NCBI GenBank assembly: GCA_903862715.1
Contig: CAIOYY010000057.1
Location: 146,836-210,835 of the forward strand
Origin: an uncultured Alphaproteobacteria bacterium
Lineage (GTDB): Bacteria; Pseudomonadota; Alphaproteobacteria; Micropepsales; Micropepsaceae
Reading direction: 5' to 3'
DNA length: 64,000 nucleotides
Each line of letters opens with the position of its first letter. The stretch's first letter is position 1. Both the position numbers and the translations under genes were made by a program. The notes below the pieces were generated by a model. It was not told where the DNA came from. It saw nothing but the letters and a program-made list of their open reading frames with translations, and did not search any database. Of the stretch, positions 41,105 through 55,259 are shown in pieces.

Positions 41105-41593
41105 CTATCTCCTGCGCTTCAGAAGGGCGAGGCAAAGCCCAGCAACCCCGAGCGAGATCAGCGCATTGTAACCGGCAAGCGATATTCCGAGAAACCGCCA
41201 GGCGGCGACATCGCAGCGCACGACGCGAAATGCGTCAGGGCCGGCGAGCGCCCCGGGTTCGAATCCAAGTCCGGCGCAGGAGGTCAGGCCTTCCCATAAG
41301 CCCCATTCGATTCCGGCGTGATAGACGCCGATCAGTCCGGAAAATCCCAGCCCGGCTATGGCAAGAAGCGCGAGCGGTCTGGCGGCGCCCTTCGGAAGGA
41401 GCCCGGCAGCCAGCAAGCCACCGCCGACAAGGCCGAACAGCGCCGCCGCGATGTGCGGCCAGCGTTGCCAATGACACATTTCGCAAGGCGGCAGCCCGCC
41501 GAAATACTGAAACCAGAGCGCACCCGAAACGAGGCTGAAGCTCACCGCTCCTGTAACCAAACCGGCATTCTGGTAACGCGACGTTTCACTCAT
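41105..41593 (-). CDS. disulfide bond formation protein B
   Basis: GGLPPCEMCHWQRWPH (CxxC) and four TM segments. Confidence 0.9.
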   Translation of the reverse strand: MSETSRYQNAGLVTGAVSFSLVSGALWFQYFGGLPPCEMCHWQRWPHIAAALFGLVGGGLLAAGLLPKGAARPLALLAIAGLGFSGLIGVYHAGIEWGLWEGLTSCAGLGFEPGALAGPDAFRVVRCDVAAWRFLGISLAGYNALISLGVAGLCLALLKRRR

Positions 41594-49106: not shown

Positions 49107-50261
49107 ATGGCAGAGAAAAGGCAGGACAAGGTGGAAGGCGTTTCGCCGCAATCGAACGCGCTGGTGCCGAAACAGCACCGCGTCGAACGCGCGGCGGGCG
49201 AGTTCCGGCGTGGGGTCCCTGTGGTATTTCGCACGCGCGAAGGCCGGCGCCTGATCTCTGTCCCGGCTGAGACGCTCACCCAGGAATTATGGGCACACCT
49301 TGCGGAGGGGGCGGAGGCGCCGCCTTTGCTGCTTCTCACGCGTGCACGGGCCGCGACACTGAAAATCCGCCTCTATACCCCGGACATTGTCGGCATCCGG
49401 CTGGAGGCCGGAATCGATGTAAAGCGCATAAAATCTATCGCAGACCCCGCTTCCGACCTCGAAAACCCACTGAAAGGGCCTTTCGATACGATGCGCGAAC
49501 CACTGCCGGATTGCGCCGCGCCCGCCGTGAAACTCGCCAAGCTCGCGGGTCTTCTGCCCTCCGTCCTGATCCTCACGGCCGACGCGATGATTGCGCGCAA
49601 TGACGATCTCGTTGAACTCGCAACCGATGATATCGCGGCCTCCGAGGCCGAAGCCGCGCGCGATCTGCACATCGTTGCGCGGGCGCGGCTGCCGCTCGAT
49701 GGCGCCGAAAATTGCGAACTGGTCTCCTTCCGGCCCGCCGATGGCGGTCCCGAACATCACGCGATTCTGATCGGAATGAGCGGCGGAAAGGGGCTCGCAA
49801 CGCCCGGTCCGGTGCTGGCCAGGCTGCATTCGGAATGTTTCACGGGTGATCTTTTGGGCTCCCTCCGCTGCGATTGCGGCGATCAGTTGCGCGGGGCCGT
49901 GCGCCTCATCGCGGCGTCCGGCGGCGGCGTGCTGCTCTATCTGGCGCAGGAAGGGCGCGGCATCGGGTTGATGAACAAGCTGCGCGCCTATCGTTTGCAG
50001 GATCAGGGCTTCGACACCATCGAGGCGAATGAACGCCTCGGCTTTGAAGCCGATGAACGGCTTTACGATTTCGCCGCACGCATGTTCACCCTTCTGGGGT
50101 ATCGCTCGGTCCGATTGCTGACGAACAATCCGGAAAAAATCCGCGCGCTGGAAGCGGCCGGGATCACGGTGACGGAACGCGTGCCGCATTCCTTTCCCGA
50201 CAATGTGCACAATCGCGACTACCTGAACACCAAGGCCAAACGCAGCGGACATCTGCTGTGA
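49107..50261 (+). CDS. ribA: GTP cyclohydrolase II with N-terminal extension
   Basis: HSECFTGDLLGSLRCDCGDQL, LAQEGRGIGLMNKLRAYRLQDQGFDT, LLTNNPEKI. Confidence 0.94.
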   Translation: MAEKRQDKVEGVSPQSNALVPKQHRVERAAGEFRRGVPVVFRTREGRRLISVPAETLTQELWAHLAEGAEAPPLLLLTRARAATLKIRLYTPDIVGIRLEAGIDVKRIKSIADPASDLENPLKGPFDTMREPLPDCAAPAVKLAKLAGLLPSVLILTADAMIARNDDLVELATDDIAASEAEAARDLHIVARARLPLDGAENCELVSFRPADGGPEHHAILIGMSGGKGLATPGPVLARLHSECFTGDLLGSLRCDCGDQLRGAVRLIAASGGGVLLYLAQEGRGIGLMNKLRAYRLQDQGFDTIEANERLGFEADERLYDFAARMFTLLGYRSVRLLTNNPEKIRALEAAGITVTERVPHSFPDNVHNRDYLNTKAKRSGHLL

Positions 50262-50770
50262 CCCATCCCATTCGGGTCCGGCGCGAGGACGATGCGTTTG
50301 CCGTCGATTGGGGAAGGGGGCCGCGCCGCTGCGCCATCGGCCGTGGCGGCGTCGGCATGAAAGCGGGCGAAGGCGATGGCGTAACGCCTGTTGGCCTCTG
50401 GCCGTTGCGCGAAGTGTTTTACCGTGCCGACAGGATCGCGCGCCCCGAAACCTCGCTGCCGTTGCAGGCGATTGCACAGGATGATGGCTGGTGCGATGCA
50501 CCGGGTGATCCGAATTACAATCGTCGCGTGAAGCTTCCCTATAATGCCAGCGCGGAAAATCTGTGGCGTTCCGACGGTCTGTACGATGTCGTCATCGTGC
50601 TCGGTTACAACGACGCGCCGGTGGTCCCCGGAAGAGGCAGCGCCATTTTTCTGCATGTCGCGGCAAAGGATTTCTCGGCGACCGAAGGATGCGTTGCGCT
50701 TGACAGGCAGGACATTGTGGAATTGCTGCGGGATGCTTCGCCCGGCAGCGTCATCGACATCGCGCCTTAG
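50258..50770 (+). CDS. L,D-transpeptidase family (YkuD-type) protein
   Basis: GDGVTPVGLWPLREVFYR, SAIFLHVAAKDFSATEGCVALD catalytic H...C motif. Confidence 0.85.
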   Translation: MTHPIRVRREDDAFAVDWGRGPRRCAIGRGGVGMKAGEGDGVTPVGLWPLREVFYRADRIARPETSLPLQAIAQDDGWCDAPGDPNYNRRVKLPYNASAENLWRSDGLYDVVIVLGYNDAPVVPGRGSAIFLHVAAKDFSATEGCVALDRQDIVELLRDASPGSVIDIAP

Positions 50771-51456: not shown

Positions 51457-52074
51457 ATGGCGGCGGTACGGGAACGGGCGAAACTAGCAAGCGCGGCTGA
51501 GCGTCTCAATCGACGCGCCGCGGTGCATTTGCCGCCGCTTTTTCTGGTCACCGACGATGTGCGGGTTCCTGATCCGGTTGCGGTAGCGAAGACCCTGCCG
51601 CAGGGCTCCGGAATTATCCTGCGTCATCGCGACGCGCAAAAACGTTCCGTGCTGGCCGAGGCGCTGGCCACTCTTGTTCCGGAGCGGGCGCTGTTTCTTA
51701 TGGTCGCGGGCGACGAAGAACTTGCGCGCGCTGTCGGCGCCGACGGCGTGCACTTCGCCGAAGCGGAAATGGGGGCGGTTGCCGCGTGCCGCTGGCATCA
51801 TCCTTTGTGGTGCATTACGGTGGCGGCGCATTCCGGCCCGGCCCTGCGCCTCGCCGCACAGGCGGGCGCCGACGCGGCATTTTTTGCGCCGCTGTTTCCG
51901 ACGCGAAGCCATCCGGAAAAATCTGGTTTCGGACTCACGCGATTTCGTTTCCTCGCCGCGCGCGCCCCGCTCCCCGTCTATGCATTGGGCGGCGTCACGG
52001 CGCAAAACGCCGCGCGCCTCGATGGCGCGCATATTGCCGGGATCGCCGCGATTGAAGGGCTGATGCCCGGCTAA
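51457..52074 (+). CDS. thiamine phosphate synthase / TenI-like protein
   Basis: PPLFLVTDD, ADGVHFAEAEMG, FFAPLFPTRSHPEKSGFGL, PVYALGGVTAQNAARLDGAHIAGIAAIEGL. Confidence 0.82.
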   Translation: MAAVRERAKLASAAERLNRRAAVHLPPLFLVTDDVRVPDPVAVAKTLPQGSGIILRHRDAQKRSVLAEALATLVPERALFLMVAGDEELARAVGADGVHFAEAEMGAVAACRWHHPLWCITVAAHSGPALRLAAQAGADAAFFAPLFPTRSHPEKSGFGLTRFRFLAARAPLPVYALGGVTAQNAARLDGAHIAGIAAIEGLMPG

Positions 52075-53288
52075 AGCGTGAAGCCGAGATTGACGAACCC
52101 GGCATCCATGCCGATTTCGTCGTTCCCATTGTAATAGGCGCCGACATTGCGTTCGTGCTGGTAATGCTGCCATCCGGCGGTGATCTGGAAATTACGGTTG
52201 AGCTGATAGCCGAGCGCCGCCTGATAGCCGTCGATCACATAACGCGGCACGCCAATGGGCGCATCGACAAAGGTGTTCGAATATTCCGCGCCGAGACGCC
52301 AGGAATCGCGTTCCGCCAGCGCCGAGACATGCACACGTTCGGTTTCCGCGCTGTGATAGACCGTCCCGGTGGAATAGCCGTAACCGCTGGACACGCGGTA
52401 GCCGCCGCCCCAGGACAGATCGGTTTCTCCCAGCTCCGTCTGAAATTCGAGACCCAGCGCCCAATCGTAGATATCACCGCTTCCCGGCGTCGGATTGCGC
52501 AGCGCGCCGCGCGCATAGGCGGCGGAAATGCCCATTGTGATCTCGTCGAAGCGGCGATTGTAACTCGCGGCGAACTCCCACACCGATCCTTGCGTGTTCG
52601 CTCCGTTGCCGGGATTGCCGGTGAAGGGAACGATGCTTTTGATCAGGTTCGGCGTATAGGACGCACCGATCTGGATTCCGATCAGGCGCGGCGAAATATA
52701 GGAAATCTTCGCCGCATTGGACGACGCCTTCACGGCGGTGATTTCCTTAGTGAAAGTGTTGAATTTTTTGTCGCTGAAGGGATTGCGGAAGAAGGTGATC
52801 TCGGGATTTTCGAGTGACACATGCGGATCGACCTGCGGACCCGTCAGGCCCAGCGTGTAGCCGGCGCCGTCCTGCTGACCGATCTCGACGCGGCCCAATC
52901 CGGTCTGCACATAAAAATAGAGCTTCTGCAGAAAATCATTGCCATAGGCATCGCCCGACAATTCATCGCGCCCCAGAAGAACATTCGCGCGCAGGCCCGT
53001 AATAAGGCCGCTGTCGTAAAGACGCTGGAGACGCACACTGGCGACGCTTAAACCGGTAAAGCCGTCGTCGTCATATCCGCCGGGATAAAGCGGGCCTCTG
53101 TCCTCTGCGGCCGTGAACACGCTGCCGCTCGCAAAGCCTTCAAGCTGCGCCTCGTAATTGCCCACATACCAGACCGGCGTATCGATGCTGAGCGTTTCGC
53201 TGAGGCCCTGCGCGATTGCGGGCGTCGCCGCGAGAAAACCCGCTGTGGCGAGAAAAAGGGCGCGCATTGTGCTCGTGCGCTGGTTCAT
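52071..53288 (-). CDS. Gram-negative porin
   Basis: Signal peptide, alternating beta-strand pattern, VEIGQQDGAGYTLGLTG, C-terminal GFVNLGFTL. Confidence 0.82.
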   Translation of the reverse strand: MNQRTSTMRALFLATAGFLAATPAIAQGLSETLSIDTPVWYVGNYEAQLEGFASGSVFTAAEDRGPLYPGGYDDDGFTGLSVASVRLQRLYDSGLITGLRANVLLGRDELSGDAYGNDFLQKLYFYVQTGLGRVEIGQQDGAGYTLGLTGPQVDPHVSLENPEITFFRNPFSDKKFNTFTKEITAVKASSNAAKISYISPRLIGIQIGASYTPNLIKSIVPFTGNPGNGANTQGSVWEFAASYNRRFDEITMGISAAYARGALRNPTPGSGDIYDWALGLEFQTELGETDLSWGGGYRVSSGYGYSTGTVYHSAETERVHVSALAERDSWRLGAEYSNTFVDAPIGVPRYVIDGYQAALGYQLNRNFQITAGWQHYQHERNVGAYYNGNDEIGMDAGFVNLGFTL

Positions 53289-53534
53289 GCGCGTCTCTCC
53301 CCGTGGGTATTTTTAAAGCCCGAATTCCTTAAACGGATTTGCGGCCGAAAGGCACCCGACCCGCGCGGAATTGTTCCGCCTTAACTGGACCTTTCCGCAA
53401 TCTTCCGGAAATCCGTCACTTCGCGACGTCTTCGCCGCCGTTGCGCCTTTTCATGCGCCTCAGTATAAAAGATAAGTGCCTGAGGAAGCGGGCCTTATTG
53501 CGGCAAAACGCTGGCCCACGGGAGGCAAGTTTTC

Positions 53535-54125
53535 ATGCGTCATTCCTATCTCGCGCTTTGCGCCGGTCTGCTCCTGACGTTGATGGCGTCACCCGAGGTC
53601 AAGGCGCAGACTTGGGGCAATGGCGATTGCACGGTGTCCATCTGGTGGCCTTATTCGCGTGAAAAAGGCGATTGCCTGACCGACAAGGAAAAGGAAGCCG
53701 GGTTGACCGGCAATTATCTCGATCCCGAAGGCACATATCGCCGTCCGGAAGTGATTGGCGAGGAAGCGGGCGAACCCGTGATCGGACCCGATGGCAATCC
53801 CGTTCCGGGTTCCGAAAGCGACGGCCGTTTGATCATCAGCAATGAACGCGGCTGCACCACCGGCATTCTGTGGCCCTATGTCCGTAAACCGGGTGACTGT
53901 CTGACCGATGGCGAAATCGAGGCCGGGATGACCGGCGTTTATGGCAATTCCCGCCGTCCCGGCGAAGCCCCGCCCACGCCATCCGCAGTCAATCTCGCGC
54001 CGCTGCCTGCCGCGCCGGAGTCGGACAGCGGGTTGTTCGGGCTTTTCGGCTCGGGCGATCAGAATTTCGGTACAGGCGGCCTGCTCGAAGACAATCTCCT
54101 GCCTGCGGATCAGAGAAACCAGTAA
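53535..54125 (+). CDS. exported protein with two C-x14-C / GDCLTD modules
   Basis: Signal peptide; modules CTVSIWWPYSREKGDCLTDKEKEAGLTGNY and CTTGILWPYVRKPGDCLTDGEIEAGMTGVY. Confidence 0.85.
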   Translation: MRHSYLALCAGLLLTLMASPEVKAQTWGNGDCTVSIWWPYSREKGDCLTDKEKEAGLTGNYLDPEGTYRRPEVIGEEAGEPVIGPDGNPVPGSESDGRLIISNERGCTTGILWPYVRKPGDCLTDGEIEAGMTGVYGNSRRPGEAPPTPSAVNLAPLPAAPESDSGLFGLFGSGDQNFGTGGLLEDNLLPADQRNQ

Positions 54126-54149
54126 TCGACCATTAGAGGAGGGACGTTC

Positions 54150-54647
54150 ATGCGCTCTGTGCCTTATGTGCTCTGCGTCGGACTGTTCCTCTCCCTCCCC
54201 GTGGCGCCGGCTGCTGTGGCCCAGATCGGTGGGGGCGAAAACTGCAACAAGGGTATTTTCTGGCCTTTCGTCCGCGAACAGGGCGACTGCCTGACTGATG
54301 TCGAGCGCTCGAATGGCCGCACGGGCGTCTATCAGGATCCGGATGCGCCCCCCGCGACGGAGCCCGCGTCACCCGCTACCGCGACGGCTCCGGCAAACCC
54401 TGCCGCAAACCCCTCATCCGCCTCATCCCCCGCAGCTTCCGTGCCTGCCGTCGCGTCGGGGCCGGTCCTGTCGGGGAGTAGCCAAACCCCTATACAGGCC
54501 TCTACGGCTCCCGCCGCAGCCGAACCCGCTCCGGCGCTCGACGAAAACAACTGCCGCAAGGGTCTCTGGTGGCCCTTTGTGCGTGAGGCGGGGGATTGCC
54601 TGACCGATGTCGAACGGGCCAATGGCAGGCAGGGAACATATCAGTAG
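54150..54647 (+). CDS. exported protein with two C-x14-C / GDCLTD modules flanking an Ala/Pro-rich linker
   Basis: Signal peptide; modules CNKGIFWPFVREQGDCLTDVERSNGRTGVY and CRKGLWWPFVREAGDCLTDVERANGRQGTY. Confidence 0.85.
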   Translation: MRSVPYVLCVGLFLSLPVAPAAVAQIGGGENCNKGIFWPFVREQGDCLTDVERSNGRTGVYQDPDAPPATEPASPATATAPANPAANPSSASSPAASVPAVASGPVLSGSSQTPIQASTAPAAAEPAPALDENNCRKGLWWPFVREAGDCLTDVERANGRQGTYQ

Positions 54648-54758: not shown

Positions 54759-55259
54759 ATGCGGATTCTCATTCTCGCCGCCTGCGTTTGTTTTCTCGCC
54801 GCCTGCAGTTCGGACGATGCCGGAAACGGCCCCGTTCCCGCGACCAGCATCGGCACCTCGGGTGATGGCGGTGGCTCCTGGTGGTGGCCCTTTGGCGGCG
54901 ACGACAATGAAGCTGCGATGGCGGCCTTCCAGGGCCCGGAGCTTGGCGTAAACGCCTATCTCTGGCGTGCGACGCTCGACACGTTGAATTTCATGCCACT
55001 GGCGACCAGCGACCCGGTCGGCGGCATCATCAATACCGAATGGTATTCCGCGCCCGAAAATCCGAACGAACGGATCAAGGTCACCGCCTATATTCTGGAC
55101 CGCCGCCTGCGCGCCGATGCACTTCGCGTCGCGGTCTTCCGTCAGGTGCGCAATGGCGATCAATGGGCGGACGCAGACACCAACCCCGACACGGCGGTAC
55201 GGCTGGAAAATGCGATCCTCACCCGGGCGCGGGAAATCCACATTTCGCTTATTCAGTAG
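54759..55259 (+). CDS. DUF3576 domain-containing lipoprotein
   Basis: Lipobox-like FLAAC; GPELGVNAYLWRATLDTLNFMPLATSDPVGGIINTEWYS upstream of leuS. Confidence 0.88.
   Translation: MRILILAACVCFLAACSSDDAGNGPVPATSIGTSGDGGGSWWWPFGGDDNEAAMAAFQGPELGVNAYLWRATLDTLNFMPLATSDPVGGIINTEWYSAPENPNERIKVTAYILDRRLRADALRVAVFRQVRNGDQWADADTNPDTAVRLENAILTRAREIHISLIQ

Follow-up and report, generated by a model that had tools for sequence, protein, structure and literature searches.

A cysteine-paired repeat module in exported proteins encoded between porin and DUF3576 lipoprotein genes, apparently confined to one alphaproteobacterial genus

Two adjacent genes in the 64,000-nucleotide stretch of alphaproteobacterial DNA analysed here (the window) encode exported proteins that hold four modules of about 30 residues, and the locus raises the question of what this repeated unit is, how far it has spread and what proteins built from it might do in the cell envelope.

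The repeat and its conserved core

The two plus-strand ORFs are separated by 24 bases and each follows a Shine-Dalgarno sequence (Table 1). We find that all four units placed here by the first-pass annotation are present and in frame, and that the first module does occupy residues 32-61 in both proteins, as it had observed. A degenerate DNA pattern (C-x5-W-P-[FY]-x4-G-D-C-x-T) has four matches in the window and none in 100 dinucleotide shuffles; chance is excluded as the origin of the repeat. Comparison of the four window copies gives pN of 0.19-0.37 and pS of 0.56-0.86, and the all-pair means between copies and species are 0.33 and 0.70, respectively. Since synonymous differences between copies exceed non-synonymous ones, the module peptide is a conserved entity, i.e. 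a real, selected protein repeat.

Table 1. Features of the module locus and its surroundings (window positions unless a contig handle is given)
Feature	Position	Strand	Basis or remark
DsbB gene	about 41126-41563	-	same genome, inside window, about 12 kb from module genes
YkuD L,D-transpeptidase, short gene	50258-50770		about 3 kb upstream of module genes
Porin_4 outer-membrane porin	52071-53288	-	Pfam PF13609, E=2.8e-14
Candidate promoter TTGCGC-N17-TATAAA	53441-53469	+	upstream of module gene 1; intergenic alignment
Shine-Dalgarno GGGAGG	53520-53525		before module gene 1
Exported module protein 1	53535-54125	+	196 aa; signal peptide about 1-25; modules 1 and 2; ORF and sequence
Module 1, CTVSIWWPYSREKGDCLTDKEKEAGLTGNY	53628-53717	+	sequence and DNA pattern
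Module 2, CTTGILWPYVRKPGDCLTDGEIEAGMTGVY	53853-53942	+	sequence and DNA pattern
Shine-Dalgarno GAGGAGGG	54136-54143		before module gene 2
Exported module protein 2	54150-54647	+	165 aa; signal peptide about 1-25; modules 3 and 4; Ala/Pro-rich linker
Module 3, CNKGIFWPFVREQGDCLTDVERSNGRTGVY	54243-54332	+	sequence and DNA pattern; AlphaFold model with flanks
Module 4, CRKGLWWPFVREAGDCLTDVERANGRQGTY	54552-54641	+	sequence and DNA pattern
DUF3576 lipoprotein	54759-55259	+	Pfam PF12100, E=3.2e-41
Look-alike motif SWWWPFGGDD	54876-54905		in N-terminal linker of DUF3576 lipoprotein
Shortened module, CSHSWYWPFGSGDC	L097:1859-1880 (G003)		inside G003 module protein

To describe conservation, we compared 21 full copies and one shortened copy from six proteins in five genomes. 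The core C-x5-W-P-[FY]-(x)-G-D-C is invariant across all 22. Among the full modules, C1, W7, P8, G14, D15 and C16 never vary, F/Y9 and R/K11 are likewise found in 21 of 21 (R11 itself in 20), and K/R3, T18 and E21 are each kept in 19. The C-terminal half is looser, with L17 in 13 of the 21, D19 in 11, G25 in 16 and Y30 in 11. As such, the residues first proposed as conserved stand for W-P, GDC and both cysteines, and the LTD-x-E and G-x2-G-x-Y half is only partly conserved across the 21 full copies. Specifically, L17, D19, G25, G28 and Y30 are kept in the window and in its congener G006, and in three others (G003, G002 and G001) this part has decayed both in inner modules and in the last, so the C-terminal half is not essential to every copy. 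Linkers between modules are 53-83% A/P/S/T/G/Q/V. They had been described as not conserved, which does not hold throughout, as the FGLFGS...GLLED linker in the C-terminal part of window protein 1 is shared with the G006 protein.

All six module proteins carry a signal peptide by inspection, ending in ...KAQ, ...VAQ, ...NAQ, ...AMAA or ...ASAA with the first module cysteine a few residues further on, and inspection reveals no lipobox ([LVI][ASTVI][GAS]C) at the signal-peptide end. Every mature cysteine in these proteins (44 of 44) belongs to a module pair, with none left over, which makes one disulfide loop per module likely; the cysteine pattern gives good support to such a loop forming in the periplasm. 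Even the shortened G003 module, with a loop two residues shorter, retains both cysteines. The view of a disulfide-stapled exported module is thus borne out in its two invariant, fully paired cysteines and its signal peptides, and we infer disulfide formation itself from them.

AlphaFold2, run on module 3 with flanks and a family alignment, yields a compact model (mean pLDDT 83, pTM 0.53), with two of the five models poor (59-60). In it, residues 24-28 form a short helix, and DSSP assigns strand bridges to residue 7, adjoining C6, to D20/C21 and to the vicinity of residue 34. The first-pass annotation had suggested such a model as a check on the disulfide: bridges adjoin both cysteines in this prediction, which is no more than compatible with the two being close. 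A full-length module protein modelled without an alignment reaches a pLDDT of 53 and is of low confidence.

The assertion that the module belongs to no named family agrees with our library searches. Neither Pfam and NCBIfam at curated cut-offs nor PHROGs at a significant E-value matches the window proteins, and Pfam likewise has no match for 20 single modules, and none for the proteins of G003 and G006. A sequence-profile search of the PDB gives a chance-like best E of 1.3. Foldseek returns no PDB match at E<=10 for the module model and no viral folds resembling it were found, a query of about 40 residues having low power in both cases. A literature text search for "GDCLTD" found no paper. The module looks new as a sequence family, being undescribed in every library searched.

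Distribution, architecture and gene neighbourhood

A profile built from 20 modules was searched against 96 genomes of the family (7 of the genus and 89 others) and 387 genomes sampled from the class. Besides the window genome (G000), four of its six congeners in the set carry the module (G001, G002, G003 and G006). It was not convincingly found in the 89 other genomes of the family, and the 387 class genomes gave no convincing match, those in G257 and G418 being single and near threshold. Weak matches in other genera were set aside as Ala/Pro-linker matches or chance; of these, the match in G024 was inspected and proved to be a TrpB-like protein. The full module protein 2 has no match in genome contigs or in a plasmid collection, nor does protein 1 in a phage collection. 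Scanning 85,462 species for the exact motif recovers four true contigs, which match these four relatives and are all from "Alphaproteobacteria bacterium" MAGs (Baikal-deep-G57, RE-9nov16-174, RH-23may17-1006 and REEB348), and two chance matches, in Roseinatronobacter and Sulfurisoma, rejected as frames without a signal peptide or second module. The isolate name Baikal indicates a lake, and RE- and RH- isolates presumably come from a freshwater reservoir. Across these searches, the module appears only in one genus.

The number of modules per protein differs among these close relatives: two and two in the window, four in G006, eight in G003 (the short one included) and three each in G002 and G001. 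All four relatives, each of which has a counterpart of module protein 2, have just one gene for all their modules, which makes the split over two genes in the window look derived. For example, the N-terminal half of the G006 protein is homologous to window protein 1, with the linker VNLAP...FGLFGS...GLLED after module 2 as in that protein, and its modules 3 and 4 stand where protein 2 would follow. From these sequences the window pair is best read as one multi-module gene that has been split or duplicated. The earlier account of gene duplication plus internal duplication proves simplified, since the relatives have one gene with 3-8 modules and the window spreads four over two. A module tree of 30 columns is poorly resolved; it unites the WPY-type modules (94/97), i.e. 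both of window protein 1 and the first of G001, G002 and G003, and has no resolution outside that group.

Gene order is shared by the five module-bearing genomes: TMP synthase-like gene (a position that the G003 contig does not cover), Porin_4, module gene(s), DUF3576, leuS, lptE and holA. The porin gene is divergent from the module gene in all five. In the congener G004 the porin lies directly beside DUF3576 on one contig, with no module gene between them or elsewhere in the assembly; the porin therefore does not need the module protein. The porin of G005 lies at a contig end, which makes that genome uninformative, and in G021, from another genus of the family, DUF3576 is near a YggS gene without a porin.

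Between porin and module gene, G000, G006 and G001 have in common a block of TTGCGC, 17-18 bases and TATAAA. It is the likely promoter of the module gene as judged from this cross-species block; a strict sigma-70 scan picked up neither this candidate nor any other promoter. In the wider surroundings, L,D-transpeptidases of the LDTGo type have been described for Alpha- and Betaproteobacteria (PMC10864386) and offer a possible comparison for the YkuD protein of the window. A DsbB-like ORF is also seen by inspection near the G002 module locus (L095:12503-13012), as DsbB is in the window.

A look-alike motif in the adjacent lipoprotein

DUF3576 is a lipoprotein domain of unknown function that occurs across Alphaproteobacteria. 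In the window its N-terminal linker, between lipobox and domain, contains a cysteine-free look-alike of the module core. The corresponding linkers read SWWWPFGGDD in G000, SWFWPFGGDD in G002, SWFWPFGSGDD in G001, PWYWPFGGGD in G003 and SWDWLFGTGEE in G006. Expressed as [SP]W[WFYD]W[PL]FG, the motif occurs in DUF3576 only where modules are present, a full co-occurrence over six informative genomes. It is absent from the DUF3576 protein of the module-less G004, where the linker is acidic, and from the inspected DUF3576 proteins of other genera and families. The six informative genomes are related by descent, so the co-occurrence may represent a single evolutionary event. A LeuS tree is weakly resolved and groups G004 with the one other-genus sequence at 81/88, which does not place it firmly.

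A DNA search for W-x-WP[FY]-G in the seven genomes of the genus finds nine sites. Four lie in the lipoproteins and one in the module protein of G003; amidohydrolase-like proteins account for three more, and the last is in a 21-residue frame. The W-x-WPYG matches elsewhere in G006 and G002 were rejected, as they lie in amidohydrolase-like proteins or the 21-residue frame. Nucleotide identity between module and lipoprotein motif, at 10.2/18 within genomes and 9.7/18 between them, does not support exchange between the two sequences as a general pattern. In G003, the short module and the lipoprotein motif share 14 of 18 nucleotides over the core, and by its sequence this module is intermediate between a full module and the lipoprotein motif. 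The first-pass annotation had mentioned neither the look-alike motif nor the restriction to one genus.

Possible function and comparison with known proteins

What might such proteins do? Our preferred reading, to which we give a probability of about one half, is a genus-specific, secreted, multivalent envelope binding or adaptor protein composed of disulfide-looped beads on flexible linkers. The two window genes would encode an envelope protein of the "beads on a string" type, in which a single disulfide closes every bead of about 30 residues; it would form via the DsbA/DsbB route, in keeping with the DsbB gene of the window. The loop would expose the invariant W-P-[FY] with R and G-D, and the more variable short helix would lie behind it. 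With 2-8 beads on Ala/Pro/Gly-rich linkers, the protein could gain avidity through many weak contacts to one repeated envelope partner, a mode that we consider most likely because the beads are joined by flexible linkers. Multivalent binding through this W-P-[FY]/R/G-D face has moderate support. Several points tell against the reading as a whole: the motif co-occurrence may go back to one event, the porin is present in G004 without modules, the C-terminal half of the module degrades in three relatives, and two of the AlphaFold models are poor.

The partner may lie on the periplasmic side of the outer membrane, as peptidoglycan or another glycan, as the porin, or as a surface shared with DUF3576; this is suggested by the fixed place between porin and DUF3576 genes together with the matching W-x-WPFG motif. 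From sequence, we can only infer which of these is the ligand. We judge a glycan or peptidoglycan ligand to be about as likely as a protein partner that DUF3576 also uses; the shared motif itself leans towards something, partner or site, that the module protein and the lipoprotein have in common. An extended form, in which a minimal disulfide-looped recognition module arose in one genus beside the porin gene and, with a cysteine-free version of its W-P-F core in DUF3576, the two proteins bind the same envelope partner as a two-gene adaptor system, is unlikely.

Two rival explanations concern what the module binds. The W-P-F core could be a protein-protein contact for the site that the DUF3576 motif also occupies, in a homotypic or competing manner; the protein would then gather DUF3576 lipoproteins, or the porin, as a scaffold and would not be a glycan binder. 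Four of the module-bearing genomes have W-x-WPFG in DUF3576 and the fifth a variant, which the module-less congener and the inspected other genera lack; in G003, CSHSWYWPFGSGDC stands beside a lipoprotein motif that matches it at 14 of 18 core nucleotides, and the three other W-x-WP[FY]-G sites in long ORFs of the seven genomes all fall in amidohydrolase-like proteins. However, these observations comprise few independent events, and the motif may serve both proteins for ligand binding and not as an interface between them; this explanation is possible and, on balance, doubtful. Much the same standing goes to a glycan- or peptidoglycan-binding repeat, in which exposed aromatics would stack on sugars and repeat number would tune avidity. 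The invariant W, F/Y, R and D in the disulfide loop, the signal peptide and the tandem copies on Pro/Ala linkers, an arrangement carried by many wall-binding proteins, point in this direction, as does the nearby YkuD gene. By contrast, neither Pfam nor the PDB reveals similarity to wall- or carbohydrate-binding families, and the proximity of YkuD counts for little, with several unrelated genes in between; we regard this explanation, too, as tentative.

The fast change in repeat number, the occurrence in one genus and the absence from the same place in G004 could also describe a young lineage-specific protein without strict function, kept by drift and repeat slippage. This is improbable, given that pN is clearly below pS in the all-pair means, that six positions are invariant in 21 copies and that the promoter-like block is kept in three intergenic regions. 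Compact cysteine-paired cores that alternate with flexible, poorly conserved linkers would also be expected of a polyprotein precursor, from which modules are cut and released as small disulfide-cyclised peptides. Yet the linkers have no obvious conserved protease site, the conserved neighbourhood has no dedicated protease, transporter or immunity gene, the modules within one protein are not identical and gene order is tied to housekeeping envelope genes, all of which renders this the most improbable of the explanations considered.

Small disulfide-closed repeat modules on flexible linkers are a general type among secreted proteins. The module conforms to it in having one cysteine pair per unit, tandem copies, Pro/Ala-rich linkers and an export signal, but resembles none of these families in Pfam or the PDB, by sequence or by fold. 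Lineage-specific exported repeat proteins are common as a phenomenon, and the novelty here lies in the protein family. The DUF3576 lipoprotein resembles the module in its W-P-F followed by G and D, and its gene is adjacent in the same genomes; it differs in that the motif is without cysteines, in single copy and in a linker, and the DUF3576 domain is unrelated. This co-occurring motif in a neighbouring lipoprotein is the part worth following and, if truly shared, could become a first handle on DUF3576.

Taxonomically restricted (orphan) bacterial genes are known (PMC1824705). The module genes are similar in that they lack an assigned function and no relative is detectable outside one genus; unlike most orphans, they have internal repeats, strict residue conservation and fixed synteny, and are thus better defined. 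A strict, small module in one genus, varying from 2 to 8 copies between close species and apparently sharing a motif with the lipoprotein next door, would offer a tractable case for the birth of periplasmic domains.
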